From contig DASVTZ010000048.1 of the NCBI GenBank assembly GCA_036387335.1, positions 1-46,031 of the forward strand: a stretch of 46,031 bases of DNA, in the 5' to 3' direction. The position numbers and the translations under genes were made by a program. Below are positions 15,138 to 29,756 of the stretch, in pieces. The stretch's first letter is position 1; every line of letters starts with the position of its first letter. The DNA comes from Longimicrobium sp. (GTDB lineage Bacteria; Gemmatimonadota; Gemmatimonadetes; Longimicrobiales; Longimicrobiaceae). The notes under the pieces are model-generated. The model ran no database searches and had not been told where the DNA came from. It was given only the letters and a program-made list of their open reading frames with translations.

Positions 15138-15191
15138 CTGGCCTTTGTGGTGCGTGGTGCGGGGGGCCCTCACCCCCGCTCGTTCCTCGCT

Positions 15192-15221
15192 GCCCCCTCT
15201 CCCGATAACGGGAGAGGGGGC
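15192..15221. repeat. Perfect hairpin repeat inside the export operon
   Basis: A perfect 12-bp stem (gccccctctccc with gggagagggggc) with loop gataac is preceded by cgctcgttcctcgctgcc, the shared flank of this repeat family. It lies between two ABC genes on the same strand, so it may lower or protect the downstream part of the message. Confidence 0.7.
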
Positions 15222-15240
15222 GGTACCGAATCCCGCGGCC

Positions 15241-17442
15241 TTACTCCATCGCGATCAGCTGGCTGTAGGCGCCGCCGCGAGCCTTGAGCTCGTCGTGGGT
15301 GCCGCGCTCCACGATGCGGCCGCGGTCCAGGACGACGATCTCGTCGCAGTCGCGGATGGTGCTCAGGCGGTGCGCCACGATCAGGCACATGCAGCCGCGG
15401 CGGCGCAGGTTGTCGTCGATCTCCTTTTCGGTGATCGGGTCCAGGGCGCTCGTGGCTTCGTCCAGCACCAGCAGGGTGGGGTTGTTCACCAGGGCGCGCG
15501 CGATCTCCAGCCGCTGGCGCTGCCCGCCGCTGAAGTTGCGGCCGCCCTCCTCCACCTTCCCCGAATAGCCGCCGGTGCGCGCGCTGATCTCGTCGTGGAT
15601 GCACGCGTCGCGGGCCGCCTGCACCAGGTCCGCGTCGGAGACGGTGTCGTCCCACATCGTCAGGTTCTCGCGGATCGTTCCCTCGAAGAGGAAGATGTCC
15701 TGGTCCACCACCGCCAGGCTGCTGATGAGGGTGCGGCGCGCGTGCCCGGCGCGCGGGAGCCCGTCCAGCAGCACCTGCCCGGCCCACGGGTCGTAGAGGC
15801 CGCTCACCACCCGCGCCACGGTGGACTTGCCGCTCCCCGAGCCCCCCACCAGCGCCACCCGGCTCCCGGGCTTGAGGGTGAGGTTGAAGTCCTGGATGAG
15901 CGCGGGCTCCAGCCGGCTGTAGCCAAAGGACATCCGCTGGATCTCCAGGTGCCCGTCGAGCTTGGTGCGGTGCGCCTCCTCGTCGGGCGCCTCGTGGGTG
16001 TAGCGCACCTCGGCGCGCAGCACGTCGTCCAGCCGGTTCAGATCGCTCCCCACCTCGTGCAGGGTGCTCCCCAGCGCCACCAGCCGGTTGACCGGGGTGA
16101 GGAAGGCGAGCATCAGCGCCTGGAACGCCACCAGCATCCCCATGCTCATCTCGCCGTCCATCACCCGCTGCCCGCCCAGCCCCAGCACCAGCGTGCTGCT
16201 GAGCGCCATCAGCAGGGTGGGGAGCACGGAAAGGAGCTGCGTCTGCCCGCCCAGCTCCTGCTTGGCGTTCACCACCTTGGCGTACTGCCCCGCCCAGCGC
16301 GCGAAGAAGTCGCTCTCCGAGCCGGTGCTCTTGAGCGTTTCGATGTTCATCAGCCCGCCCATGGTGGTGCCCACGGAGCGGCCGTAGTCCTTGGCCAGGC
16401 GGTAGCTGAGGTCGGTGCGCCTGCGCGACACCGCCACGAGCGCCACGATGTTGAGGGCGGCGGTCGCCACCACCACGGCCGTCATCCACAGGTCGTAGCC
16501 GGACATGAGCACGGCGTAGAACGCCACCACCACGATGCTGAGCAGCGTCGTCGCCAGCTCGCCCGAAAGGACGTGCGCGGCGCGGTCGTTGAGCCCCACG
16601 CGCGACGCGATCTCGCCCGGAAAGCGCTGCGAGAGGAACTGCATGGGAAGGTGCAGGACGTGCCAGAAGAAGCGGGTGGAGGCCGTGAGCGACAGCTTCG
16701 TCTCCAGCCGCAGCAGGTAGAGCTGCTGCAGCCAGGTGAGCGCGGCCATGAAGAGCGCGGTGACCCCCATGGCCGCCAGGAGCGGCGTCACCCAGTCGCT
16801 CAGCCCGCGGATGAGCACGGCGTCCACGTACACGCGTGAGAAGGTGGGCACCACCAGCCCCGGCACCACCAGCGCCAGCCCCGCGAGCACGATGAAGGCG
16901 AGCGCGGCGTGCGAGCGCGGCAGGCGGCGACGCAGCGCGCTCACCAGCGAGCGCCCTTCGCCGCCGGGCTTGAACTCGGGCCCCGGCTCCATGACCAGCG
17001 CCACGCCCGTGAACGACTCGTCCAGCTCCTTGTCCGACACGACGCGAGGGCCGTACGCCGGGTCGTTGAGGAAGACCCGCCCCCTGGACCCGAACCCCTC
17101 CAGCACCAGGAAGTGGTTGAAGTTCCAGTGCACGATCATGGGGAGCGGCATGCGGCGCAGCGCCGCGGGCTCCAGCTTGTACCCCTTGGAGGTGAGCCCG
17201 AAGGTGCGGGCCGCGCGCACGATGTTGCTGGCCTTGCTCCCGTCGCGCGAGATGCCGCAGGCGATGCGCAGCTCCTCCAGCGGCACGTAGCGCCCATGGT
17301 GGGCCAGGATCATGGCGAGCGAGGCGCCCCCGCACTCCACCGCCTCCATCTGGAGCACGGTGGGCACGCGGCGGCGCCGGGGCGAGGGTGGGGCGTCCTC
17401 GCCGCCGGCGCGGCCCCGCGCGCGTTCCAGGAGCGCGGTCAT
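15241..17442 (-). CDS. NHLM-type bacteriocin ABC transporter with C39 leader peptidase
   Basis: The 733-residue protein has an N-terminal C39 peptidase with Gln31, Cys37 (QMEAVECGGAS), His110 (HWNFNHFLVLEG) and Asp127 (FLNDPAYG), the full catalytic set. It then has a six-helix exporter domain and a nucleotide-binding domain with GGSGSGKST, FSGGQRQRLEIARAL, LLVLDEATSALD and IVAHRLST. Its job is to cut the leader after a double glycine and export the core. The precursors in this window (4946-5469 and 23413-23989) all carry GG, so they are the likely substrates. The ATG at 17442 overlaps the HlyD stop as ATGA, so translation is coupled. Confidence 0.93.
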   Translation of the reverse strand: MTALLERARGRAGGEDAPPSPRRRRVPTVLQMEAVECGGASLAMILAHHGRYVPLEELRIACGISRDGSKASNIVRAARTFGLTSKGYKLEPAALRRMPLPMIVHWNFNHFLVLEGFGSRGRVFLNDPAYGPRVVSDKELDESFTGVALVMEPGPEFKPGGEGRSLVSALRRRLPRSHAALAFIVLAGLALVVPGLVVPTFSRVYVDAVLIRGLSDWVTPLLAAMGVTALFMAALTWLQQLYLLRLETKLSLTASTRFFWHVLHLPMQFLSQRFPGEIASRVGLNDRAAHVLSGELATTLLSIVVVAFYAVLMSGYDLWMTAVVVATAALNIVALVAVSRRRTDLSYRLAKDYGRSVGTTMGGLMNIETLKSTGSESDFFARWAGQYAKVVNAKQELGGQTQLLSVLPTLLMALSSTLVLGLGGQRVMDGEMSMGMLVAFQALMLAFLTPVNRLVALGSTLHEVGSDLNRLDDVLRAEVRYTHEAPDEEAHRTKLDGHLEIQRMSFGYSRLEPALIQDFNLTLKPGSRVALVGGSGSGKSTVARVVSGLYDPWAGQVLLDGLPRAGHARRTLISSLAVVDQDIFLFEGTIRENLTMWDDTVSDADLVQAARDACIHDEISARTGGYSGKVEEGGRNFSGGQRQRLEIARALVNNPTLLVLDEATSALDPITEKEIDDNLRRRGCMCLIVAHRLSTIRDCDEIVVLDRGRIVERGTHDELKARGGAYSQLIAME

Positions 17443-18743
17443 CGCCCGGCTCGCGACGCGAGGTCGGCCGGCCCGGCGGCGCCGATCCCCAGGAAGCGGC
17501 GGAGCTGCGGCACCACCAGCAGGATGGGCCGGCGGCGCTCCACCACGATGTTGGCGTCGGCCAGCGTGCCGCTCTGGATGCGGATGGGCGGGCCGCTGGA
17601 CGACGACCAGCGGTACTGCGTGGCGCTGGCCGCGTCGGGAATCAGGTCGGCGTGCACCTCGTAGGGCGCGTCCTGCCCTGAGAGCGCCGTCACCAGTTGA
17701 GCGTTCTTGAGCACGCGCTGCATCCCCTGCGGCGTGCTGGGGAAGTCGGAGGCGTACGTCACCCGACCCAGCAGGTAGCCGTACTCCTCCTTCTTGACCG
17801 TGGAGGGGACGATCTGGATCTCCATCCCCGGCTTGATCTTCTTGCCGTGCAGCGAGGGGACGTAGACCACCGCCTCCAGGTTCTTGACCGCCTTGCCGGC
17901 CAGGCTCACCGTCATGATGGGCTCGCCGCGGTCCACCAGACCGCCCTGCTCGGCCATCACCTCCAGCACGCGCCCCGTGTACGGCGAGGTCACCTCGGAC
18001 TGCAGGCGCAGGTCGTTCTCCAGCTTTTCCAGGTTGCGCTCGGCCTCGTGCAGCTGGTTGCGGCTGGCGAGGAGCTCCTGCTCCTTCTGGTTGCCGGCCT
18101 GCAGGCTCTCCACGTTCAGCTGCACCAGCTGGCTGCGGTCCGCGCGGATGCGCTCCTTCACCGTCTCGTGCTCCTGGCGGGAGCGGAGGAGGTTCTGCCG
18201 CGTCATCAGCCCCTGCTGCACCAGCCGCTCCTCGTTGGCGATGCGCTCGGTGAGCGCCGCCAGCGTGGCCTCGGAGGCCTGGATCGACTGTTCCAGGTTG
18301 GTGCGGCGCTGCGCCTGCGAGGCGGCCTGCAGCTGCCGGTCGCGGTCCACGAACGACCCCACGCGGCGGTACTGCCCCTCCAGCTCGGCCACGCGCGAGC
18401 GGGCGTTCCTCACCTGCTCGCTCAGCTCCGGCTGCGACAGGCGGGCGATGACCTGCCCCTCGCGGATGGTGTCGCCCACGCGGATGGAGAGGTCGGATAC
18501 GAGGCCGCCGCTCTGGGCGACCACCTCGTACACGCCGCCGCTGCGCAGCAGGATGGCCTGCGCCGCGATGCGCTCGGGGATGCTCCCCACCACGCTCCAC
18601 GCGATGGCGACCACCAGGAGCGCCGCCAGCCCCGTGAGCGCCAGCCACCCCTTGGGCGTGGCCACCTGCATGAGCTCGTCGAGCTGGTCGGGCGAACCCA
18701 GGCGGTCGAGCGCGACCTTTCGGAAGATGTCCGGCTTGGCCAT
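17439..18743 (-). CDS. HlyD-family membrane fusion protein of NHLM-type secretion system
   Basis: The 434-residue protein has one N-terminal transmembrane helix (WLALTGLAALLVVAIAWSVV, about residues 33-52). It has a split biotinyl-lipoyl domain (GGVYEVVAQSGGLVSDLSIRVG and SPYTGRVLEVMAEQGGLVD) around a long coiled coil rich in Glu, Gln and Arg (about residues 105-235). It links the inner-membrane ABC pair to the TolC channel. The start is MAKPDIF at 18743; no strong ribosome site is seen. It sits 34 bases after the TolC gene. Confidence 0.9.
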   Translation of the reverse strand: MAKPDIFRKVALDRLGSPDQLDELMQVATPKGWLALTGLAALLVVAIAWSVVGSIPERIAAQAILLRSGGVYEVVAQSGGLVSDLSIRVGDTIREGQVIARLSQPELSEQVRNARSRVAELEGQYRRVGSFVDRDRQLQAASQAQRRTNLEQSIQASEATLAALTERIANEERLVQQGLMTRQNLLRSRQEHETVKERIRADRSQLVQLNVESLQAGNQKEQELLASRNQLHEAERNLEKLENDLRLQSEVTSPYTGRVLEVMAEQGGLVDRGEPIMTVSLAGKAVKNLEAVVYVPSLHGKKIKPGMEIQIVPSTVKKEEYGYLLGRVTYASDFPSTPQGMQRVLKNAQLVTALSGQDAPYEVHADLIPDAASATQYRWSSSSGPPIRIQSGTLADANIVVERRRPILLVVPQLRRFLGIGAAGPADLASRAGR

Positions 18744-18777
18744 AACACCGTTCGTGGGCTGATGGTGAGCGGGTGCG

Positions 18778-20334
18778 CTACTGCCGCGGAGCGGCGGGCG
18801 CCCACGACGTGATGCGTTCCGGGTCCGCGGCGGCCTCTCCGTCGCCGTCGCCCAGCAGGGCGCCGGTGTGGAAGCGCAGCTGGGCGACCGCCACCGCGTA
18901 GCGCCGCCGGGTGCCGATCCAGCCGAGGAGCGCGCCGGTGCGCCCGTCCTCCACCTGGATGACCTCCAGGAGGGTGGAGGTGCCCAGCTTGAACTTCTCG
19001 TTCTCGCTCTCCACCGAAAGCCGGTGCAGCCGCACCGCCTCGCGCGAGATCTCCAGCTCCTCAACGGCGCGGCGCAGCGATTCGGCCGCGAGCGCCGCGT
19101 CCAGCGCGATCTGCCGCGTGAGCTCGTCCAGGAAGAGGGATGCGCGCCGGTCCGCGGCGGTGCTCCGCATCACCTGCCCCGCCGCCACGTTGCGCGTCAG
19201 CGGCAGCGCGTACGACAGCGCCACCTGCGCGTTGAAGCCGTGCGTGCTGGCGTAGAAGGGCGAGAAGAGCCGCTCGAACTGCGCCCCGCTCTCCAGCCCG
19301 GTGTAGCCCACGCCCACGCTCAGGTCCACGCGCGGCGCCGCCTCGCTGCGGCTTCCGCGCAACGACGCGCGCGCGGCGGCCACGCGGCTGCGCGCAGCAT
19401 CCAGGTCCGCGCGCCGCTGCAGCGCCTCGGCCACGCTCGCCTCCTCGGCGGGGACGGCGGCGGCACCGCCCGGCGGCGCGATGGGGAGCGAGTCGGCCGG
19501 GAGCGGCAGCGTGGCGAAGCTCTCCGCGCCGAGCCCCACCGCCCGCACCAGCGCCTGCCGCGCGGACGACACCGACCCCTCGCCGCCCAGCCGCGCGGCG
19601 CGCTTGGAGGCCAGGCTGGCCTGCACGGCGAGCCGGTCCGACGCGGGGCGGGCGTCGGCCGCGATCAGCGTCTCCGTCTGCCCGACCAGCGTGCGGGCCC
19701 GCTCTTCGGACTCACGCAGCACGTCCAGCGACTGGAGGGCGGCCACGTAGCCCCAGTACGCCGTGACCGCGTCCAGCACGCGCAGCGCCTGCAGCTGGCG
19801 AAGCTCGCCGCGGCTGGCGTCGAGCGAGGCGGAGGCGGCGCGCTCGCCGGCGCGCAGCCCTCCCCCGCCCCGCCCCCGCCCCAGCGGCACCAGCAGGTCC
19901 AGCCGCGCCACCCCGGTGTTGCGCGTGGGCGCCCCCTCCGCGTCGATCCCCTGGCGGTTGTAGGAGAGGCTGGGCGAGAGCACGAGCCCCGGCCGCAGGC
20001 GCCAGTCCACCCCCGCCGTGTAGTCCAGCCCGCGGCTCTGTGTGGTGGAAGGCCCCGTCTCCGCGTTGCCGAGCGAGGGGTTCCCCGCGCGCTCGCTGGT
20101 GACGCTGGCGAGCGCCTGCGGGTCGAAAGCGCCCCTGGCCTGGCGGAGCGTGCCCTCCTGCGCGTGCACGTCCCACTGCCCCAGCGCGATGTCCGCGTTG
20201 CGGGCCAGGGTGGCGCGGACCACTTCGGCCAGGGTGAGGCGCGGGCCGGGCGGGGCCTGCTGCGCGCGCAGGGGCGCGCTCCCGGCGCCCAGGGCCAGGA
20301 GGAGGATGCCGAACCGGCTCGCCGCGTTGCTCAT
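18778..20334 (-). CDS. TolC-family outer membrane efflux protein
   Basis: The 518-residue protein has a signal peptide (FGILLLALGAGSAPLRAQ) followed by the duplicated TolC/OEP pattern: LTLAEVVRATLARNADIALGQ at the start of half 1, long Ala/Arg/Glu-rich helices, and FKLGTSTLLEVIQVEDGRTGA near the end of half 2. It would form the outer-membrane duct for the HlyD/ABC exporter transcribed just after it. The ATG at 20334 is chosen because the signal peptide starts there and GCAGG is upstream; in-frame extension to 20376 adds an unlikely hydrophilic stretch. Confidence 0.88.
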   Translation of the reverse strand: MSNAASRFGILLLALGAGSAPLRAQQAPPGPRLTLAEVVRATLARNADIALGQWDVHAQEGTLRQARGAFDPQALASVTSERAGNPSLGNAETGPSTTQSRGLDYTAGVDWRLRPGLVLSPSLSYNRQGIDAEGAPTRNTGVARLDLLVPLGRGRGGGGLRAGERAASASLDASRGELRQLQALRVLDAVTAYWGYVAALQSLDVLRESEERARTLVGQTETLIAADARPASDRLAVQASLASKRAARLGGEGSVSSARQALVRAVGLGAESFATLPLPADSLPIAPPGGAAAVPAEEASVAEALQRRADLDAARSRVAAARASLRGSRSEAAPRVDLSVGVGYTGLESGAQFERLFSPFYASTHGFNAQVALSYALPLTRNVAAGQVMRSTAADRRASLFLDELTRQIALDAALAAESLRRAVEELEISREAVRLHRLSVESENEKFKLGTSTLLEVIQVEDGRTGALLGWIGTRRRYAVAVAQLRFHTGALLGDGDGEAAADPERITSWAPAAPRQ

Positions 20335-20516
20335 CTCGCACCTGCCCGGAGCTGGGGTATCTTCGTCGGCGGGCATCCCCGTCCGATTCGCCGCATCATC
20401 GTTCACCCTCGCGGAGCGGGCGAAGGCCACTGAGCCGCGCGAGATCCGCCCTCGGGTGCATCCCTCGACCGCCTTTCCGTCGTCCCGACGCGCCACTTCG
20501 TGGCGGCCGCGCCGCC

Positions 20517-21062
20517 TCACGCGAGCGGAGCCAGCGCCGGCCGTACGCGCGGGGCGAGCTGGTGCCAGGCCAGCGGGAGCCACGCGGTGAACGTCTCCGG
20601 GTAGTCGCGGAGGGCGGCTTCCAGGGCGTCCACCGGGCACCACCGCCAGGCGCCCACCTCGGAGGGGTCGGGAAGCGGCACGCCGCTCCAGACGCCGGAG
20701 AATACGTGGTCGAGCTCGTGCTCCACGAGGCCGTTGCCCAGCTCGGCGCGGTAGGTGAAGTGCCCGGCGCCGGCCAGCGCGCAGTCGAAGCCCATCTCCT
20801 CGCGCAGCCTGCGGTGCGCCGCATCCTCCACCGCCTCGCCGGGGCGGGGATGGCTGCAGCAGGTGTTCGACCAGAGGCCGCCCGAGTGGTACTTGCCGTC
20901 CGCGCGCCGCTGCAGGAGGAGCGAGCCCGCCGCGTCGAAGACGAACACGGAGAAGGCGCGGTGAAGGAGCCCCTCCTGGTGCGCCCGCAGCTTTCCCGCG
21001 GTGCCCACCGGGGCATCGTGCGCGTCCACCAGCACCACCTCGCCGTCCAGGTCGCCGTGCAT
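20517..21062 (-). CDS. idi: Isopentenyl-diphosphate delta-isomerase, type I
   Basis: The 181-residue Nudix protein has the family landmarks: HRAFSVFVFD, LLLQRRADGKYHSGGLWSNTCCSHP (active-site Cys region), PGEAVEDAAHRRLREEMGF (Nudix-type helix), and HELDHVFSG. It converts IPP to DMAPP. The ATG lies one base past the stop of the isoprenoid-synthase-like gene (TGACATG), so the two are translated together. The pairing suggests DMAPP is supplied to the neighbour's prenyl chemistry. Confidence 0.92.
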   Translation of the reverse strand: MHGDLDGEVVLVDAHDAPVGTAGKLRAHQEGLLHRAFSVFVFDAAGSLLLQRRADGKYHSGGLWSNTCCSHPRPGEAVEDAAHRRLREEMGFDCALAGAGHFTYRAELGNGLVEHELDHVFSGVWSGVPLPDPSEVGAWRWCPVDALEAALRDYPETFTAWLPLAWHQLAPRVRPALAPLA

Positions 21063-21063
21063 G

Positions 21064-23283
21064 TCAGACGGCCACGGCGAGCGGCGCCTGGGCGGCCTGG
21101 CGCGCGCGATTGCGCACGCCCACCGCCGCGGCCTCGGTGCGCGCGCGCTCCATGTAGCCCCGGAAGACGGCCAGCCACTCCCGCCAGTCGTCCAGCGGCA
21201 GGTGCGCCACGAGGGCATCGGCCGCGTCCAGGTGCGCGATGGAGACGTCCAGCACCTTCTCCGCCTCGCCGTCGCAGTAGAGGGCGCGGGCGAACGCGGA
21301 GGGCTCCTCCGCCTCGCGCAGCTCAGGCCGGGCGGAGAGGACGTGCCCCACCACCAGCGAGGGGCCGCGCTCGCGCAGGTCCTTGCGCCAGTCCTTGAGG
21401 TCGTCCCAGTAGTACGAGGCCATGTCGAAGTGCTCGATCGACTTCGCCAGCGCCTCCACGTTGCTCTGGTCGCCCGCCAGCGCGGCCATCCCGTGCACCA
21501 CGATGGCGGCGAAGGGAAACTTCCCCTCGGCGATGCGCACGGACATCTCGCGGGTTACCAGTGAGCGGTCCTCGCCGCCGGTGCGCAGCCTGCGCTCCAG
21601 CCCGCAGGCGCGGGTGTACAGGGCAAAGGTCTCGCGGAAGCGGTCCCAGAAGGGCGAGTCCGCGGGAAAGAGCCCCTGGAAGAGGCGGTACGCCTCGAAC
21701 TGCATGGCCACGGCGCGCAGGTAGAGCTGGCCGTGGTCGTAGTTCTTGTGGCCGTCCACGATCTTGTCGGCCATGAAGGCGGACTCGAAGTAGACGCGGC
21801 ACGCCAGCGCGAAGCGGCTCACCGCCTCCTCGGGCACGCTCGGAAAGACCGGGTGGAGGATGAAGGGATAGGCCTGGTACAGCACTCCCTCGTTCCCCTC
21901 GATCCAGAGGAGGATGTCGTCGGGCCAGTGCCGCTGCAGCTCCAGCAGGAGCGGCTCGGCGGCGTTCCGCTTCGCGCGCAGACGGGCGACAGGGGTCATG
22001 GCTGGCTCCTTCCGGGTACGTGTGGGTGGAAGCGTCGCCGCCCTGCGCGGCCCCGCGGACCTTGGTTCCGTCTGGCGGACCGAGGCCGGCACGGGGCGCG
22101 CGGCGTCCGCGCGCTCCACCGGCCCCCGCTCCCGCCCCAGCCTTTCCAGCAGCCCCGCCGCCGCGCCGAAGCCGTCCCTCGCGCCGAACGCCGCACGCGC
22201 GGCGCGGGCACCCCGGCGCAGCGGCTCGCTCGTCATGGCTGCGCCGATCGCCCGCCGCAGCCCCTGGCCGTCCACCTCCGCGGGGACCCCCGCGCCGCAG
22301 CCGGCCCTCTCCGCCCAGTGGGTGAGGGTGACGGACTCGCTGCTCACCGGCACCAGCAGGCTGGGCACTCCGTGGGCGGCGGCGCCCAGCACGGCGGTGG
22401 TGGTGGATCCGCACACCACCGCCGCGGCGCGGGGGAGCACCAGCCCCTGCGGCACGTGCGGCTCGGCGATGAAGTTGGGCGGCAGCGGCCCGGCGGGTAC
22501 GTCCATCCGCGCCGTGGAGGCCACCACCTGCACCGGCCCGCAGGCGAGCGCGTCCACCAGCCGGGGCCAGAAGCCGGGCCCGCCGAAGGAGCGCCCCGCC
22601 TGCGCGTAGACCAGCGGCGCGTCCGGCGCGGCGAAGCGGGCGCGCAGGGCGGCCCACTCGGCGGCTTCGTCGCGCGGCGGCTCCCACAGGCAGGCGCCCG
22701 CCGCGTGCACCCGCGCGGGGAAGGCGGCGAGCTCCGGCTCCAGCCGCGGCACCGTGCGCAGGAGGAAGAGGTCCCCCAGCAGCGGGTGGTCTTCCGGGCC
22801 CCACTCGCCGGGGGCGAGGCGGCAGAGCGCCCGCACCTCGTTGAGCAGGCGGAGGTTGTCCACCAGGTGGCCGTGCCGGCGCGACTCCACCTCGCGCGGG
22901 GCGGCCGCTTCGCCGCGGCGCGCGGCGGGCCACAGGTACGACGCCGTCCCCATCACGGCCAGCGGCAACCCGCTCCGCTCGCGCGCCACCAGCGCGGACT
23001 GGCAGAGCTGGTGCGTCACCAGTACGTCGGGCCGAAAGCGGCGGGCCGCCTCCTCCACCTGCTTCACTCCGAGGACGGCGGCGGGGGCGAGCCCCCACAC
23101 GCGGATGTCGAAGCACCGCTCGTCGTCGCCGTGCTGCGCCAGGCCCGCCTCGTCCAGCAGCGGCCGCGCGGAGGGGCCGGTGACGAAGGCGGCCTCGTGC
23201 CCCCGGCGCCGAAGCTCCAGCGCCATCCCCGCCATGGGGAAGAGGAAGCCCGGGGTGGTGAACGAGCAGAACAGGTAGCGCAC
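21064..23283 (-). CDS. Glycosyltransferase fused in frame to class I isoprenoid-synthase-like domain
   Basis: A single 739-residue open frame. Residues 1-~395 are a UGT/MGT-type glycosyltransferase: MRYLFCSFTTPGFLFPM, FRPDVLVTHQ, PHVPQGLVLPRAAAVVCG and GVPSLLVPVSSE. After a Pro/Arg-rich linker, residues 429-739 form an all-helical isoprenoid-synthase-like domain with DKIVD (weak first Asp motif) and YYWDDLKDWRKD, a good DDxxDxxxD second motif. An internal ATG at 21999 is preceded by GGAAGGAG at 6 bases, so the second domain may also be made alone (311 aa). The start is GTG 23283 with GGGAG 5 bases upstream. It follows the precursor genes and precedes idi; it may glycosylate or prenylate a product. 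Confidence 0.8.
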   Translation of the reverse strand: MRYLFCSFTTPGFLFPMAGMALELRRRGHEAAFVTGPSARPLLDEAGLAQHGDDERCFDIRVWGLAPAAVLGVKQVEEAARRFRPDVLVTHQLCQSALVARERSGLPLAVMGTASYLWPAARRGEAAAPREVESRRHGHLVDNLRLLNEVRALCRLAPGEWGPEDHPLLGDLFLLRTVPRLEPELAAFPARVHAAGACLWEPPRDEAAEWAALRARFAAPDAPLVYAQAGRSFGGPGFWPRLVDALACGPVQVVASTARMDVPAGPLPPNFIAEPHVPQGLVLPRAAAVVCGSTTTAVLGAAAHGVPSLLVPVSSESVTLTHWAERAGCGAGVPAEVDGQGLRRAIGAAMTSEPLRRGARAARAAFGARDGFGAAAGLLERLGRERGPVERADAARPVPASVRQTEPRSAGPRRAATLPPTRTRKEPAMTPVARLRAKRNAAEPLLLELQRHWPDDILLWIEGNEGVLYQAYPFILHPVFPSVPEEAVSRFALACRVYFESAFMADKIVDGHKNYDHGQLYLRAVAMQFEAYRLFQGLFPADSPFWDRFRETFALYTRACGLERRLRTGGEDRSLVTREMSVRIAEGKFPFAAIVVHGMAALAGDQSNVEALAKSIEHFDMASYYWDDLKDWRKDLRERGPSLVVGHVLSARPELREAEEPSAFARALYCDGEAEKVLDVSIAHLDAADALVAHLPLDDWREWLAVFRGYMERARTEAAAVGVRNRARQAAQAPLAVAV
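22006..22013 (-). promoter_or_regulatory. Internal ribosome binding site within the fusion gene
   Basis: On the minus strand this reads GGAAGGAG, 6 bases before an in-frame ATG (21999) that begins the isoprenoid-synthase-like domain. It is one of the best ribosome sites in the window, which argues for independent translation of the C-terminal part. Confidence 0.7.
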
Positions 23284-23378
23284 GGGTCTCCCGGTGCAGG
23301 TCGCGATGGCGCGGGGACCCCCCCGGCCAGCCCTCTCCCCTCAGCCCCTCGAGTGCGACGGCCCACGTTCGTGGTGAA

Positions 23379-23400
23379 GGCCGGCCCCGTGGGGCCGGCC
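23379..23400 (-). terminator. Hairpin after the precursor genes (attenuator or terminator)
   Basis: A strong GC stem (ggccggccc with gggccggcc) has a minimal loop, 12 bases past the stop of the last precursor gene and about 100 bases before the glycosyltransferase start. There is no clear T-run. A partial terminator would keep small precursor messages abundant relative to the enzyme genes. Confidence 0.6.
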
Positions 23401-23412
23401 CCCCTTGCATCA

Positions 23413-23583
23413 CTACTGGATCGACTGCTGCTCTTCGAACGACTTGTTCGTGCCGCAGGTCATGTCCCAGCACCCGCCGGCGGCTTCCTCCAGGCTCTGG
23501 TCGTCGAGCTCTTCCACGTCGAGGTCGTCGGCGTTGAGGCTCACCAGCTCGTCTTCGGGCTTGCCCTGATTCGCTTCGCTCAT
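23413..23583 (-). CDS. RiPP precursor peptide 1, GG leader and Cys core
   Basis: The 56-residue peptide has a 37-residue acidic leader beginning MSEANQGKPEDELVS, followed by ADDLDVEELDDQSLEEAAGG. The core after GG is CWDMTCGTNKSFEEQQSIQ. Its first 26 codons are identical in sequence to precursor 2 and the ribosome site GGAGGTGGATCC is shared, so the two arose by recent duplication. Two Cys at core positions 1 and 6 are the obvious targets for a radical SAM/SPASM enzyme such as the one at 24168-25676, and the GG fits the C39 transporter. The type of cross-link cannot be read from the sequence. Confidence 0.85.
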   Translation of the reverse strand: MSEANQGKPEDELVSLNADDLDVEELDDQSLEEAAGGCWDMTCGTNKSFEEQQSIQ

Positions 23584-23661
23584 GGATCCACCTCCGAGAG
23601 GGTTGAAGGGGCGCTCGCCGGAGCCATGCGCCCCGTCGCGTAGACCGCCCCAGCACTGCTG

Positions 23662-23808
23662 CTACCCGAAAGCGGAGCCGCTGCCGCAGTCACATTCGCG
23701 GCACCCGCCGGCGGGGGCGCCGGCGCGGGGGCTGATCAGCTCGTTTTCCGGCCCTTCCCCGCCGCCCCCGTGGGAGCGGCGGGCCCAGCACCGCCGGGGC
23801 CCTGTCAC
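23662..23808 (-). CDS. Diverged third RiPP precursor, possibly degenerate
   Basis: A reading frame of about 48 residues from GTG 23808 ends in GPENELISPRAGAPAGG, then CRECDCGSGSAFG and a stop. PENELIS matches PEDELVS of precursors 1 and 2, and the core keeps Cys1, Cys6, the following Gly-Ser and Phe12; it has an extra Cys at position 4. About 19 residues of the acidic leader are missing, and there is no Met start or ribosome site. It may be translated by re-initiation, since the GTG lies 13 bases past the stop of precursor 2, or it may be a decaying copy. Confidence 0.5.
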   Translation of the reverse strand: MTGPRRCWARRSHGGGGEGPENELISPRAGAPAGGCRECDCGSGSAFG

Positions 23809-23821
23809 GGACGCCAGCGAC

Positions 23822-23989
23822 TCAGACCGCCCGCTGCTCCTCGAACGAGGAGTTGCTGCCGCAGGTCATGTCCCAGCATCCGCCGGCCGCTTCCTCCAGG
23901 TCCTGATCGTTGAGCTCTTCCACGTCGAGGTCGTCGGCGTTGAGGCTCACCAGCTCGTCTTCGGGCTTGCCCTGATTCGCTTCGCTCAT
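23822..23989 (-). CDS. RiPP precursor peptide 2, GG leader and Cys core
   Basis: The 55-residue peptide has the leader MSEANQGKPEDELVS, then ADDLDVEELNDQDLEEAAGG, and the core CWDMTCGSNSSFEEQRAV. GAGGTGGATCC precedes the ATG by a few bases. It is the first of the three tandem copies and lies 178 bases downstream of the radical SAM/SPASM stop. The core differs from precursor 1 only at the T/S and K/S positions and in the tail after FEEQ. The invariant CWDMTCG suggests these residues are the modified part and the tail is variable. Confidence 0.85.
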   Translation of the reverse strand: MSEANQGKPEDELVSLNADDLDVEELNDQDLEEAAGGCWDMTCGSNSSFEEQRAV

Positions 23990-24133
23990 GGATCCACCTC
24001 AAGGAGAGGGTAGAGGGTGCGCGGCGGAACGTGCTCCGCGGCGGCACCGGGACCCGCGCCCGCCACCGCGGAAGTGCGATGCGGCGGGATCCTGCACTGG
24101 TCCGGGCTCGTTCACGGACGTATCTCGAATGGA

Positions 24134-24155
24134 ACCCGGGCTGCTGCTCCCGGGT
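24134..24155. terminator. Hairpin between radical SAM gene and precursor genes
   Basis: A 7-bp stem acccggg/cccgggt has an 8-base loop. It lies 13 bases past the stop codon of the radical SAM gene. Without a T-run it may be a processing or stability element separating the enzyme message from the precursor message. Confidence 0.5.
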
Positions 24156-24167
24156 GCGGAGGGCGGT

Positions 24168-25676
24168 CTACAGGTCGCAGACGCGCGTGTCCTCCACGAT
24201 GGCGGCGCCGGCCACGTGGTCCAGGTACGCCTGCGCCACCGAGTGGCGGAAGCGGTCGCCGTAGCCGTCGCAGTAGTTGGAGTAGAACTTCCCGTTCTGC
24301 CCCTCGGCCAGCACCGCGCACCCCCCGCCGCAGTGCAGGGCGTAGCGGCACTTGCGGCAGGTGGGGTTGCTGGCGGGGGTGCGGCTGCGCCACATCTTGG
24401 TGAGCCCCGCGTTCATCTCCACCCCGCCGTCGTCCAGCACGCGGCCGATGCGCACCTTCTCGTCGCCCGTGCGCTCCCAGCACGCGTAGATGTCCCCGAA
24501 CTGGTCGAAGATGTACATCCCCGTGTGCGCGCCGCAGAAGCTGCTCTTGAGGTGCGGAAGTCCGTGCGCGCGGTCTTCGAACAGGCGGCGGGCGCGGGCC
24601 TGCAGCCCGTCGTCAGGCCGGCCGATCACGCGCATGTCCGGGAAGGCGATGCGCAGGTCGTCGATGGTCTCGTCCAGCTCCCAGGTGGTGGCGAAGCCGG
24701 TCTGGAACTTGGCGTTGGCGTTGCCGTGCACCACGCGCGCGGTGTACACCGAGAAGCCGCGCCGCCGGTCCCACCCGCGCGCCACGATCTCCTCGGCCAG
24801 CCGCGGCACGTGCAGGATGTTGGTCTTGTCCAGGTTCATGCGCACGGAGACGATGGCGCCCCGGTCCAGGCACAGGTCGATGTTGCGCGCGATCTGGTCG
24901 AACGAGCCGCTGCCGTCCGCGTGGATGCGGCGCTTGTTGTGCTCCTCCGGCGGGCCGTCGAGCGTGATCTGCACCGAGGCGATCCCCTCCGGCCCCAGCA
25001 GGTCCTCGTAGGCCTCCAGCTCGGTGGCGTTGCTCACCGCCCAGAAGCGCACCGGGCCCATGTCGCGCGCGCCCTTGATGATGTACTCGATGATCGGCCG
25101 GTTGACGGCCAGAAAGGGCTCGCCGCCGTAGAAGCCGATGTTGCGCGTGAACTCCACGCCCTCTTCCCAGCCGTGCTCCGCCTCCAGGGTGGGCATGGCG
25201 GCGAAGATGCGGTCCACCATCTCCGGGGTGATGACGTTGAGGAGGCGCGCGTACTGCGGGTCCGTGCGCATGTGGTCCTGGAAGCAGTACGGGCAGCGCA
25301 GGTTGCAGTTGTAGGTGGGCATGAAGATGTACGACGTGCCCTGCTGCAGGGCGCGCTGGTGCCGCTTCTTGGCCGTGCGCGCGAAGAAGCCCTCCTCTTC
25401 CTCGAAGTCCATCACCGTCATGTAGCCGCGCTGCTTCAGCAGCTCCACGGTGCGGTCCGACGGCGCGTACGTGCTCACCGGGCGCTCCGCCGCCGGGTCC
25501 GACTTCCACTCGCCGTGCAGCGGCTTGTGCGCGGGCCCCCGCTCCTGCGAGCGGAGGTAGTCGCCCACCGTGCGCGAGACCTTGTCGTAGGCGCCCGTGT
25601 AGCCATGCACCAGGAGCATTTCGCCGGCGTCTTCCGGGATGTCCACGTAGATGGTGTAGCTGCTCGTCCGAAGCAT
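24168..25676 (-). CDS. Radical SAM/SPASM peptide maturase
   Basis: The 502-residue protein has a PqqD-like winged-helix N-terminal region (about 5-95, YTIYVDIPEDAGEMLLVHG). The radical SAM cluster motif is C124-x3-C128-x2-C131 (TYNCNLRCPYCF), followed by FYGGEPFL and QITLDGPPEEHNKRR. A C-terminal SPASM domain has Cys in SSFCGAH, ACWERTG, NPTCRKCRYALHCGGGCAV and YCDGYG, enough for two extra iron-sulfur clusters. Such enzymes form thioether, C-C or related cross-links on RiPP cores. The three precursors with Cys1/Cys6 lie directly downstream, so they are the likely substrates. ATG 25676 has GGAGA 6 bases upstream; the longer start at 25745 is less likely. Confidence 0.92.
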   Translation of the reverse strand: MLRTSSYTIYVDIPEDAGEMLLVHGYTGAYDKVSRTVGDYLRSQERGPAHKPLHGEWKSDPAAERPVSTYAPSDRTVELLKQRGYMTVMDFEEEEGFFARTAKKRHQRALQQGTSYIFMPTYNCNLRCPYCFQDHMRTDPQYARLLNVITPEMVDRIFAAMPTLEAEHGWEEGVEFTRNIGFYGGEPFLAVNRPIIEYIIKGARDMGPVRFWAVSNATELEAYEDLLGPEGIASVQITLDGPPEEHNKRRIHADGSGSFDQIARNIDLCLDRGAIVSVRMNLDKTNILHVPRLAEEIVARGWDRRRGFSVYTARVVHGNANAKFQTGFATTWELDETIDDLRIAFPDMRVIGRPDDGLQARARRLFEDRAHGLPHLKSSFCGAHTGMYIFDQFGDIYACWERTGDEKVRIGRVLDDGGVEMNAGLTKMWRSRTPASNPTCRKCRYALHCGGGCAVLAEGQNGKFYSNYCDGYGDRFRHSVAQAYLDHVAGAAIVEDTRVCDL

Positions 25677-25751
25677 GGCGGTCTCCGCTGCGTGGGTGGT
25701 CAAGAGAGGGTGAGGGCGGAGCGGCGCTCCGCCGTGTCTTTTCACTCGGGT

Positions 25752-26969
25752 TCAGCTCACCAGCAGCGGCGCCTCGGCGCGCGGAGCGGCGGGGGCGGGT
25801 CCGGCCACCACCACCAGCCCCTGCCCCACCAGCTTGCCCAGCAGGCTGCGTACTGTGTCGCGGTCCACCTGGCCGGCCGCTTCCGCCACCACCCGGGCGA
25901 TGCTCACCGGCTGGCCCTGGAGGAGCGGCTCCACGATGGGCCGCGCGGAGGGGGCGAGCCGCAGCCGCTTGCCCGCGGCCACCAGTTGCACCCGGCCGTC
26001 GGGGGTCTCGGTGAGGGTGGCGTCGCGCGCGGCGGGGAGCTGCACCAGGAAGTCGTCGGTGGGGGGGAGCCCCTCCGCCATGGCGCTCCACGGGAGCCCG
26101 GCCGTCTGCTGCGGCCGCGCGCGGCTCTCCAGGTGCGCGTAGAAGCGGTCCACCAGGTCGGGAGTCAGCTGCGCCAGCAGGTCCTGGCGCAGCAGCTCCA
26201 CGTGCTCCGCGCGCGCCGCCGCCGTGGCGAAGCGCGGCAGGTCCTTGCGCGTGACGGCCGACGCGGCGCAGAGCTGGTCCACCATCCAGAGGAGGAGGTG
26301 GCGCCCGTTGTGGACGTCCACGCCGAAGGTGAGGTGCAGCGACGGCTCCTCCATGGGCACCGCCACGTGCCACCACCCGCGGGGGATGTACAGCAGCTCC
26401 CCCTCGCCCAGGATGCCGTCCCACACCACCTCTTCGGGCGGCGGGTACGACCCGTCCAGCGCGTGCGAGATGGGGTAGGGCCGGTTGTCGCCGTAGACGC
26501 GCCAGTGCTTGCGCCCCGCCACCTGTAGCACGAACACGTCGTGCTCGTCCCAGTGCAGGTCGAACCCCTTGGTGGAGCGCCACCCGGCGTACATGTTGAC
26601 GGTCACGGGCTCGCGGAAGGCGCGCGAGATGGCCTCGGCCAGCTCCCCGATGGGGGCGTACATCTGGTCGATGCGGTTGATGTTGAGCGTGGCCCCCTCG
26701 CGCAGGTGCCGCGTGAGCGCGGACGGCACCACCCGCGGAAAGGGCTGCTCCTGCACGTACGCCGTCCGCGCCACCGGCTTGCCGTCGGTCACCAGCCGCA
26801 GCCGCTGCGCGTCGAAGCTGTGCTCCGCCAGGATGCGGTTGAGCGCGTCCCACGGAAGGAGGTCGGCGAACTTCCCCGGCCAGCCCGGGACGTGCTCGAA
26901 GCGCTTGCCCCAGGAATCGCGGATGAACTCGTCCACGGTGTGGGGCGCGAAGAGGCGGTCGATCAGCAT
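25752..26969 (-). CDS. JmjC/cupin-type Fe(II) oxygenase with C-terminal winged helix
   Basis: The 405-residue protein resembles bacterial ribosomal-oxygenase-like cupins (YcfD/RoxA): WGKRFEHVPG at the N-terminus, NMYAGWRSTKGFDLHWDEHDVF with the HxD iron ligands His139 and Asp141, and YIPRGWWHVA with the distal His201. The last ~110 residues look like the dimerising winged-helix tail. The expected reaction is 2-oxoglutarate-dependent hydroxylation, here most likely of a peptide. The start overlaps the stop of the GT9-like gene (ATGCTGA), so the two are translationally coupled. It lies 75 bases before the radical SAM gene, consistent with a shared peptide substrate. Confidence 0.85.
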   Translation of the reverse strand: MLIDRLFAPHTVDEFIRDSWGKRFEHVPGWPGKFADLLPWDALNRILAEHSFDAQRLRLVTDGKPVARTAYVQEQPFPRVVPSALTRHLREGATLNINRIDQMYAPIGELAEAISRAFREPVTVNMYAGWRSTKGFDLHWDEHDVFVLQVAGRKHWRVYGDNRPYPISHALDGSYPPPEEVVWDGILGEGELLYIPRGWWHVAVPMEEPSLHLTFGVDVHNGRHLLLWMVDQLCAASAVTRKDLPRFATAAARAEHVELLRQDLLAQLTPDLVDRFYAHLESRARPQQTAGLPWSAMAEGLPPTDDFLVQLPAARDATLTETPDGRVQLVAAGKRLRLAPSARPIVEPLLQGQPVSIARVVAEAAGQVDRDTVRSLLGKLVGQGLVVVAGPAPAAPRAEAPLLVS

Positions 26970-28441
26970 GCGATGGTTCCAGGTAGCGGGGGCTCTGCGC
27001 GACGGGGGCGTACGGTGGGGCGCCGGCGCCGCGGCGGCCCCGTGTCGCCCTCGCCGCGCGCGGCGCGCCGCCGGGCCACCATCGCCTCCACCGCGGCCAC
27101 CACGCGCCGCGCGTCCAGGCGGTCCCACAGCGCCTCGGCGAAGGCCACGTGGGCCGGGTGGTCGCTCACGCCCCGCCCCAGCAGCGGGTTGTCCTCAGGC
27201 TGAAGCGCGATCCCCTCCACGTACGGGTAGTACGCGGTGCGGCTCTCGGGCGTCATGGAGGTGAAGAGGACCACGGCCGGCACGTCGAAGGCGTCGGCCA
27301 GGTGGTAGGCGCACGTGTCGGTGCTCACCACCATGTCCGCCCGCGCCACCAGGTGCGCGAAGTGGTCGAAGGTGCGCGAGTGCGCCGACCAGTCCAGGAA
27401 GCGGGGATGGTCCACCGCCAGCGGCACCGCGCTCGCCACGCGCCACCCGGTGAGCTCCAGCAGCTCGTGGACGAAGCGGGCGGCCCGCTCCGCCGGAAAG
27501 GTGCGGATGGGGGTGGAGCTCTGCGGGTGGAAGAGGAGCACCGGCGCGCCGCCGCCGTCCGCCGCGAGCCCGTTCGCCAGCTCCGCCGCGACGGCCGGCG
27601 ACGGGGGGAACGACATCCGCTTGCGCGACGCGGGGACGGCGCGGGGGTCGAGCCCGCAGGCGTCCATGCAGATGTCTACCCAGTGCGCATCGGCCGTTAC
27701 GCGCTCCCCCGTGAGATCCAGGTACGCGTCGTAGCCCGTGAGGAGCTGCACGGGTGCGGGAAGAAAGTGGATTCCGTCGATCAGGCCGGAGCGGCGGAAG
27801 AGCGCTTCCGCCTCGGCGTTACATCGGTGCTGCACCAGGTCAAGCGTGACCTCGTCGAAGCGCGCTTCCAGGGTGGCGCGCAGCTCGCGGAGGGCGCAAA
27901 GGCCCAGCAGTGTGTCGCCGAAGGCCAGGTGGAGGATGTTGACGACGGCCACCCGCACCGCGCGCCGCCCCTGGAGCAGCTCCAGCGCGCTCGCCAGCGG
28001 CGCGAACTCGCCGGTGGCTCCCAGGCGTCCCACGCGTGCCGGCATCCCGCGCTGCGCCAGCAGCTTGGCCTGCGCCCCGGCGGAGAGCACCTTGAGCACG
28101 TCCGGGCATCCGCGCGCCCGCGCGCGCCTGGCGTACTCGTTGAGCGCGCCGAAGAAGACGGGCGAGTTGGCCAGGTGCACGTCGCGCCCGGTGAGGCGCC
28201 CGTCGCGCGGGGCCTCCAGGCGGAGGGCGAGCTCGCCGGGGGCGGCGGGGGGCGCCTCTCCCGCGGGGTGGATGGAGTACACGGAGACGTCCGACCCGCG
28301 GCCGTAGTAGCGCACCCGCACGTCCAGCGGCTCGGTGACGTAGAAGAGCGTCGCCGAACGGGCGTCCGGGGGGAGGACGCCCGCGGAACGCCTCGCACCC
28401 CGTTCGAGCGTGTCTGCTGTGCCGGCGGGGCGAGCGTTCAT
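26963..28441 (-). CDS. GT9/heptosyltransferase-like glycosyltransferase
   Basis: This 492-residue protein has a C-terminal ~280-residue half that matches the GT9 heptosyltransferase fold: VAVVNILHLAFGDTLLGLCALRELR, GYDAYLDLTGE, LLFHPQSSTPIRTFPAERAARFV, and ADMVVSTDTCAYHLADAFDVPAVVLF. The N-terminal ~200 residues are unusual for the family and have no clear match; they might bind the acceptor. I infer transfer of a sugar to the peptide or a lipid acceptor. The ATG at 28441 (MNARPAG) follows AGGAAGCAGG; a longer frame to 28636 would run through the promoter. Its end overlaps the cupin start by 7 bases. Confidence 0.75.
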   Translation of the reverse strand: MNARPAGTADTLERGARRSAGVLPPDARSATLFYVTEPLDVRVRYYGRGSDVSVYSIHPAGEAPPAAPGELALRLEAPRDGRLTGRDVHLANSPVFFGALNEYARRARARGCPDVLKVLSAGAQAKLLAQRGMPARVGRLGATGEFAPLASALELLQGRRAVRVAVVNILHLAFGDTLLGLCALRELRATLEARFDEVTLDLVQHRCNAEAEALFRRSGLIDGIHFLPAPVQLLTGYDAYLDLTGERVTADAHWVDICMDACGLDPRAVPASRKRMSFPPSPAVAAELANGLAADGGGAPVLLFHPQSSTPIRTFPAERAARFVHELLELTGWRVASAVPLAVDHPRFLDWSAHSRTFDHFAHLVARADMVVSTDTCAYHLADAFDVPAVVLFTSMTPESRTAYYPYVEGIALQPEDNPLLGRGVSDHPAHVAFAEALWDRLDARRVVAAVEAMVARRRAARGEGDTGPPRRRRPTVRPRRAEPPLPGTIAC

Positions 28442-28556
28442 CCTGCTTCCTGGCGGTGCGGAGACCGGGACGGGGGACCGAAGATCGGTCGTGAAGGGCG
28501 TGCCCGGCGGGGGTGCGCCCCAGGCACGCGGCCCTGGCACGACATCCCTACTGAGC

Positions 28557-28620
28557 AAGATAGATCCGAAAAAACGTTCTTCAAGATACCGTTCGAACGG
28601 AAACGGGCGCCGAACAAACG
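28557..28620 (-). promoter_or_regulatory. Promoter with bipartite operator upstream of GT9-cupin-radical SAM genes
   Basis: On the minus strand the order is CGTTTGTTCGGCGCCC (28605-28620), 4 bases, the 12-bp palindrome CCGTTCGAACGG (28589-28600), 4 bases, a -35-like TTGAAG (28579-28584), 16 bases, and a -10-like TATCTT (28557-28562). The same bipartite element is upstream of the nucleotidyltransferase gene, with identical spacing. The position upstream of -35 suggests an activator site. Confidence 0.7.
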
Positions 28621-28652
28621 TCGCGCTCCGGGCCATGCGGGCGGCGGCGCGT

Positions 28653-29756
28653 CTACTCCGCGCCCCTTCCCAGCATGCCCGTGACTCCCCCCAGCCAGGG
28701 GTTGATGACCCGCCGCCTGCGCGCGCGCTCGTCGGTGTCGCGGCGGGGCGCGCGCAACACGTACTCGCGGATAACGGGAAGGATGCGCTCGTCGGCAGGC
28801 CTCCACTCCACCTCCGGCAGCAGCCCCGCCGGGATGGGCGCGTGAAGGATCTCGCGCGTCAGCCGCAGCGTCACCGCCACCAGCTTGGCCGCGTTCCAGG
28901 CGCGCGCCGTCGCCTCCACCCGCTCCCAGTCCACCCGCGGCTCCGCGCGCGCGGCCCAGGCGATGTCGCACAGCTTCTGGACGGTGATGTTGAAGCCGTG
29001 GTGAAAGGAGGCGTGCAGGCACAGGTGGAGGAGGAGGTCTTCGGGCGAGAACGCCAGCAGCTCCGCGTCGTGGAAGCCGGCCGGCCGCACCCGCGCCCAC
29101 AGGTCGTCCATGCGCAGGGTGAAGGGGCTCGCCGGCGGTCCGCCCCCGCGCGGGTGCCCCACCGCGTCGATCGACCAGTGCAGCTCCACCTCGAGCTCCC
29201 CCTCCTTCTGCATGGGAACGAGGTGGTGGTTGCACGCGTACACCGGCTCCAGATGGGGGTGGTTCTCCGGACGGTAGCCCAGCTCCAGCAGGACGCGGTA
29301 CGCGCGCTCGATGTCCGGGCGCGGCACCAGCAGGTCCACGTCCTCCATGCAGCGGAAGGCGGGGTCGCCGTACACGCCGCGCGCCAGGTACGCCCCCTTG
29401 AGCACCACCGCGGGGATTCCCGCCCCGCCCAGCTCGCGGGCCACTTCGGCCAGCCCCCGGTACATCCGCGCGTTCGAGCTCGAGGTGGCCGCGTACGCCT
29501 CCTCCATCGCCCGGGCGGCGGCGGGGGGCACCGCCAGCCCCGGCTCGTCGGCGAGCCGCGCGCCCACCAGCGGGGCCACTTCGTGACGGAGCGCCCGCGC
29601 CACCAGCACCTCCCATTCGGCGGCGGTCAGCGCGGCGAGCCGCTCCACGAGGGGCTCACCGGCTCGCAGCGACAGGCAGGCGGCCAGCAGGTCGCGGGGA
29701 GTGCCGCCCGCCACGTCCGCGTCCACCGGCTCGGCCAGCAACGGGATCTGCGCCAT
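28653..29756 (-). CDS. Nucleotidyltransferase-family protein (NTP_transf_5 type)
   Basis: The 367-residue protein has the nucleotidyltransferase core IPAVVLKGAYLARGVYGDP (Lys120) followed by the metal-binding CMEDVDLLVPRPD (Asp139, Asp141), then VELHWSIDA and LLHLCLHASFHHGF. Members of this family often sit in RiPP and peptide gene clusters, where their substrate is mostly unknown. It begins its own transcript at a promoter that shares an operator with the gene that follows it. AGAGG precedes the ATG by about 8 bases. It is probably an accessory enzyme that adenylylates a peptide or sugar; that is inference. Confidence 0.82.
   Translation of the reverse strand: MAQIPLLAEPVDADVAGGTPRDLLAACLSLRAGEPLVERLAALTAAEWEVLVARALRHEVAPLVGARLADEPGLAVPPAAARAMEEAYAATSSSNARMYRGLAEVARELGGAGIPAVVLKGAYLARGVYGDPAFRCMEDVDLLVPRPDIERAYRVLLELGYRPENHPHLEPVYACNHHLVPMQKEGELEVELHWSIDAVGHPRGGGPPASPFTLRMDDLWARVRPAGFHDAELLAFSPEDLLLHLCLHASFHHGFNITVQKLCDIAWAARAEPRVDWERVEATARAWNAAKLVAVTLRLTREILHAPIPAGLLPEVEWRPADERILPVIREYVLRAPRRDTDERARRRRVINPWLGGVTGMLGRGAE

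Follow-up and report, generated by a model that had tools for sequence, protein, structure and literature searches.

A third precursor frame between two intact genes

The RiPP cluster on the minus strand of the window (the whole 46-kb contig analysed here, with 72% G+C, from a genome of 5.8 Mb) contains two intact precursor genes, A1 and A3, separated by a 238-nt spacer that holds a diverged third copy. Does this copy provide the radical SAM enzyme of the cluster with a further substrate, or is it a relic? A sequence-only reading had described a precursor with a conserved core and a lost leader, resulting from a recent deletion or translated by re-initiation after A1. We conclude instead that it is very probably a pseudogene: an A1-like RiPP precursor gene was duplicated in tandem long ago, and the duplicate has since lost its start region, mid-leader and C-terminus and is drifting without constraint between two working copies.

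The genes are transcribed in the order nucleotidyltransferase (PF14907), GT9-like, JmjC_2, radical SAM/SPASM, A1, third copy, A3, GT1, prenyltransferase-fold, IPP-isomerase-like NUDIX, outer-membrane efflux, HlyD and two NHLM exporters, one of them with C39 (Table 1). A1 and A3 both have the complete set of features of a functional precursor: the leader motif, a Shine-Dalgarno sequence, Gly-Gly and a Cys-containing core.

Table 1. Features of the third copy, the intact precursors and the neighbouring genes in the window.
Feature	Position	Strand	Basis
Third precursor copy, degenerate, 48-codon GTG...TAG frame	23662..23808	-	Frame and alignment
Retained leader piece PENELIS (A1: PEDELVS)	23731..23751	-	Alignment
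Junction of 39-nt in-frame deletion, 13 codons, DVEELNDQDLEEA in A1	23712..23713	-	Alignment
Core remnant CRECDCGSGSAFG (A1: CWDMTCGSNSSFE), indel-like changes near Cys4	23665..23703	-	Alignment
TAG in place of A1 GAG, codon 51/55; premature stop relative to A1	23662..23664	-	Alignment
Probable relic of the old C-terminus, untranslated: CAGC, 7-nt insertion AGTGCTG, GGGCGGTCT as in A1 end	23642..23661	-	Alignment
Intact precursor A1, 55 aa, MSEANQGKPEDELVSLNADDLDVEELNDQDLEEAAGG / CWDMTCGSNSSFEEQRAV	23822..23989	-	Frame and family profile
Shine-Dalgarno of A1, GAGGTG	23995..24000	-	6-nt match, 5-nt spacing
Intact precursor A3, 56 aa, leader near-identical to A1, core CWDMTCGTNKSFEEQQSIQ	23413..23583	-	Frame and family profile
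Shine-Dalgarno of A3, GGAGGTG	23589..23595	-	7-nt match, 5-nt spacing
Radical SAM/SPASM peptide maturase, predicted N-terminal leader-binding (RRE-like) domain	24168..25676	-	Profiles and model
JmjC_2 (PF08007) protein, possible peptide hydroxylase	25752..27068	-	Profile match
GT1-type glycosyltransferase; homologues adjoin the radical SAM gene in many relatives	22000..23283	-	Profile and relatives
Trans-prenyltransferase-fold protein, invariant DDLxDWxxD	21064..21999	-	Predicted structure
NHLM-type C39 peptidase/exporter (TIGR03796), likely Gly-Gly leader cutter	15241..17400	-	Profile; end taken from the searched frame, start codon left unassigned
Nucleotidyltransferase PF14907	28653-29756	-	Profile match

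The third-copy frame MTGPRRCWARRSHGGGGEGPENELISPRAGAPAGGCRECDCGSGSAFG opens with GTG at 23806-23808, 13 nt past the A1 stop, and closes with TAG at 23662-23664. As described earlier from the sequence, it holds PENELIS, GG, Cys1, Cys6, Gly-Ser, Phe12 and an extra Cys4, and, as in the family, a Cys-containing core lies downstream of Gly-Gly (GG-CRECDCGSGSAFG). The Smith-Waterman score of the spacer against A1 was 83; all 1,494 other contig windows and all 2,000 dinucleotide shuffles scored lower, with maxima of 69 and 56. The retained leader piece and the core each matched above chance on their own in local alignment, and the score against A1 exceeded that against A3 (83 versus 65). The third copy is a genuine homologous copy, beyond chance. 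We also considered that its GTG derives from the A1 upstream region; only 1 of 1,000 shuffles scored as high, which is suggestive, but 17 of 3,654 overlapping contig windows scored equally and we do not claim this origin.

Lesions in the start region, leader and C-terminal end

We found no ATG, and no Met, in the third copy, and the best Shine-Dalgarno match upstream of its GTG is 3 nt long, compared with 6 nt (A1) and 7 nt (A3) at 5-nt spacing; the earlier remark that the frame has neither Met nor ribosome site was correct. In the leader, SLNADDL of A1 has become SPRAGAP by substitution, with Arg where the SLN motif has Asn. Directly after this stretch, an in-frame deletion of 39 nt has removed 13 codons (DVEELNDQDLEEA) that include 7 acidic residues. 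These two changes replace the previous account, in which about 19 acidic residues were simply absent. The Leu and acidic residues ahead of Gly-Gly in A1 are missing from the third copy as well; in canonical double-Gly protease sites, Leu and acidic residues precede Gly-Gly.

Further downstream, the core codons read TGC-TGG-GAC-ATG-ACC-TGC in A1 and TGC-CGC-GAA-TGT-GAC-TGC in the third copy. Because the alignment favours small compensating indels at this place, the extra Cys4 may have arisen through slippage. The TAG at A1 codon 51 deprives the frame of its C-terminal end, too. The third copy combines homology to an intact gene with disabling lesions, as a pseudogene does.

Absence of a purifying-selection signal

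Conservation of the core had been taken to indicate function. In the comparison of A1 with the third copy, dN/dS was 0.47/0.21 in the retained leader and 0.36/0.28 in the core, noisy estimates from about 33 comparable codons within one genome. Differences fell on first, second and third codon positions at 10/32, 11/31 and 7/29 sites, without a third-position excess (Fisher P = 0.47). When neutral decay was simulated with the observed substitution spectrum, neither core identity (P = 0.11) nor the core-versus-leader contrast (P = 0.17) was significant, and the frame stayed open up to the position of the stop in 60% of the decays (P = 0.60). With dN at or above dS in both leader and core, and with these P values, core conservation does not argue for function. 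The description of a core kept and a leader lost is right about the leader lesions, but the contrast with the core is weak for the alignable parts, which mismatch at 14/45 nt (retained leader) and 15/54 nt (core).

Some features do speak against a pseudogene: the frame is open over 48 codons, the length of the deletion is divisible by three, and none of GG, C1, C6 and G7 has been lost. The joint survival of these residues was borderline (P = 0.03), and they were picked as family-type residues but after the copy had been seen, which comes close to a post hoc choice. About half of the A/T sites and under a fifth of the G/C sites have changed, so that decay ran mostly from A/T to G/C. This bias alone would leave Gly, Cys and Ala codons largely untouched, and the G/C-rich codons of the four retained elements belong to the class with the fewest changes. 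Within these few codons, there is no sign of purifying selection on the third copy.

The first 78 leader nucleotides of A1 and A3 are identical, silent sites included, and their cores differ; A1 and the third copy differ at 29 of 99 aligned sites. Judged from this divergence, the third copy is older and not a fresh deletion product, and A1 and A3 were duplicated or homogenised more recently than the third copy diverged. The recent deletion suggested previously survives as an in-frame loss of 39 nt, but "recent" finds no support for the copy as a whole.

The lost leader element is kept in detected relatives

When GTDB genomes were scanned with the genome's own two enzyme copies, aligned, as query, 43 related loci came up, among others in Cyanobacteria, Acidobacteriota, Myxococcota, Chloroflexota and Gammaproteobacteria; an earlier contig scan with a single enzyme as query had returned none. 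Near related radical SAM genes at 28 loci, a leader profile detected 51 precursor-like frames, 50 of which have an SLN-type motif, usually followed by xxDLDxEELERRLELA; this set includes the contig C156 of the same genome, and the profile favours frames with a leader. The third copy has SPRAGAP and then the 13-codon deletion at the place of the SLN-type motif and the acidic DDLDxEEL. A family profile built without the window sequences gave 32 bits for A1, 34 bits for A3 and 0.7 for the third copy.

The lone exception among the 51 frames is an extra Myxococcus copy that is decayed itself: in this third copy of Myxococcus qinghaiensis (L024:7519-7690), SLN has become GRN and EELE has become EERK, and the core is broken by a stop and indels. 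A second independent relic, an orphan 3' precursor fragment, lies in the L054 array. Closer to the window, the enzyme was found in no other genome among 99 relatives and 395 genomes of the phylum, the precursor had no real match in any other of 154 genomes of the order, the third copy has no counterpart in a relative, and a search of the own genome for a further copy of the region gave short matches only. A weak match in genome G014 was set aside as belonging to another system, where the Gly-Gly precursors are multi-copy and lie next to an apparent LanB-type gene. This family relative (contig C273, locus L057) carries a different RiPP array, in which the LanB-like gene is accompanied by several similar Gly-Gly precursors with a PLSDESLEEVAGG leader and Cys-containing cores.

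A leader-binding domain is predicted in the radical SAM enzyme

The enzyme matches PF04055 (radical SAM) and TIGR04085 (SPASM) above cut-off. A structural model based on an alignment of 41 sequences (mean pLDDT 84) has its best PDB matches in the radical SAM RiPP maturases CteB (5WGG/5WHY) and TigE (8VPO), which align over nearly the whole length of the enzyme; they share only 14-19% identity with it and act on other precursors. Strands are predicted at residues 8-12, 19-24 and 30-34 and helices at 35-43, 74-83 and 91-111 of the first 111 residues. Such a beta3-alpha3 N-terminal domain, followed by a radical SAM core and SPASM, is the architecture of an RRE-type maturase, and in the model the domain looks like a RiPP recognition element or the leader-binding domain of CteB.

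The system also resembles the PapA/PapB ranthipeptide pair, which combines a Cys-containing core with a radical SAM/SPASM enzyme and a leader that is expected to bind the RRE and in which an Asn has been proposed to be required (PMC9413430). It differs in that the enzyme scores 110.8 bits against NF047865 (PapB ranthipeptide maturase), below the curated cut-off of 340 and thus outside that family, and in that the cores in the window have no CX3D repeats.

From fold and family, we would expect the N-terminal domain to bind the SLNxDDLDxEEL stretch of working precursors, the enzyme to modify, probably cross-link, their Cys-containing core, and the C39 exporter to cut after Gly-Gly. The relic should give no product, because its start site and leader stretch are missing and its protease site is altered; the exporter should not cut it where the Leu and acidic residues before Gly-Gly have gone. 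The relic offers a natural contrast: because the element that it has lost is kept in the detected relatives, the SLN/DDL stretch is likely to be the recognition handle of this radical SAM family, as the analogy with PapB also suggests.

Other explanations for the third copy

It is very unlikely, in our view, that re-initiation after A1 yields a leader-poor precursor from the third copy and that modification of its core, in trans or by a different enzyme, leads to a different three-Cys product. Such a role would fit the open frame, the retained GG, C1, C6, G7, S8 and F12 and the short distance from the A1 stop to the GTG, and the related PapB is very tolerant of core sequence; however, PapB showed this tolerance on substrates that carried their leader, which is presumed to be required (PMC9413430). 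Re-initiation, as put forward earlier, would have to bridge a 13-nt gap to a GTG that has no Shine-Dalgarno sequence, and the product would have no leader motif and, with the Leu and acidic positions ahead of Gly-Gly gone, no canonical double-Gly site for the protease; that dN equals or exceeds dS also counts against it. The narrower proposal, that the frame is translated into a precursor with almost no leader and that the radical SAM enzyme of the cluster modifies its three-Cys core in trans to give a distinct product, is less probable again.

Equally improbable is a role of the spacer as RNA or DNA, namely as a structured element, an attenuator or a terminator controlling the A1:A3 ratio, the coding likeness being left over. 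The spacer has 76% G+C and a strong fold (-137 kcal/mol), but the fold is not significantly better than those of shuffled sequences (z = -1.1, 26 of 200 as good), and neither a terminator- or promoter-like site nor an Rfam match was found in it. On the shuffle test and these searches, we rejected the reading of the spacer as a structured RNA, a terminator or an Rfam element.

Least probable of all is that the relic is preserved because A1 and A3 draw core sequence from it by gene conversion. Gene conversion would also explain the identical A1 and A3 leaders (78 nt, with different cores), and the proposal agrees with the closer match of the relic to A1, but neither the A1 nor the A3 core was shown to contain a stretch derived from the relic, and recent duplication explains the A1/A3 identity equally well.

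Decayed precursor copies and the surrounding RiPP family

As a pseudogene, the third copy has parallels. PMC10027976 describes pseudogene precursor copies as common in the prochlorosin family. In these diversity-oriented lanthipeptide clusters, according to the same paper (citing Cubillos-Ruiz et al. 2017), early stops or frameshifts disable extra precursor copies next to intact ones, whose leader is conserved and whose cores are diverse; the pattern in the window is the same. The precursors are modified by a LanM there and by a radical SAM/SPASM protein here, and the leaders are of prochlorosin type there and of SLN/DDL type here. The third copy adds an ordinary pseudogene example from a different RiPP type. 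Tandem duplication in RiPP clusters can be expected to leave decayed precursor copies behind, and taken alone such a copy carries little weight; for annotation, only A1 and A3 should be counted as substrates.

The surrounding RiPP family is more interesting than the third copy. The type represented by positions 12174-29756 of the window and by loci L014-L055 has an RRE-type radical SAM enzyme, an SLNxxDLDxEELERRLELA leader and often a GT1; no matching description of this widespread type was found in the libraries and literature searched. In the same genome, the radical SAM enzyme occurs a second time (66% identical) at a contig end (C126, L009:16897-18408), where a GT9-like gene precedes it, as it does in the window, but no JmjC gene is present. 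On contig C156 (L010:4597-5925), five precursors that share this leader type and have Cys-rich cores stand in tandem next to an M50-like peptidase and a GT1. We considered joining these two contigs, but found no exact overlap of their ends and no detectable link.

Homologues of the prenyltransferase-fold protein in this RiPP type are fused to a squalene-hopene-cyclase-like domain. The protein in the window has no Pfam match and does not have the cyclase domain of its homologues; its model (pLDDT 88) has polyprenyl and GGPP synthases as top PDB matches, and the adjoining gene (20517-21218) encodes the IPP-isomerase-like NUDIX protein. A terpene-decorated peptide is a possible product of this RiPP type. 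The GT1 and prenyltransferase-fold genes form one open frame (21064-23283, minus strand) with no stop between them, and a good Shine-Dalgarno sequence, AAGGAG, ahead of an internal ATG suggests that they are two proteins.
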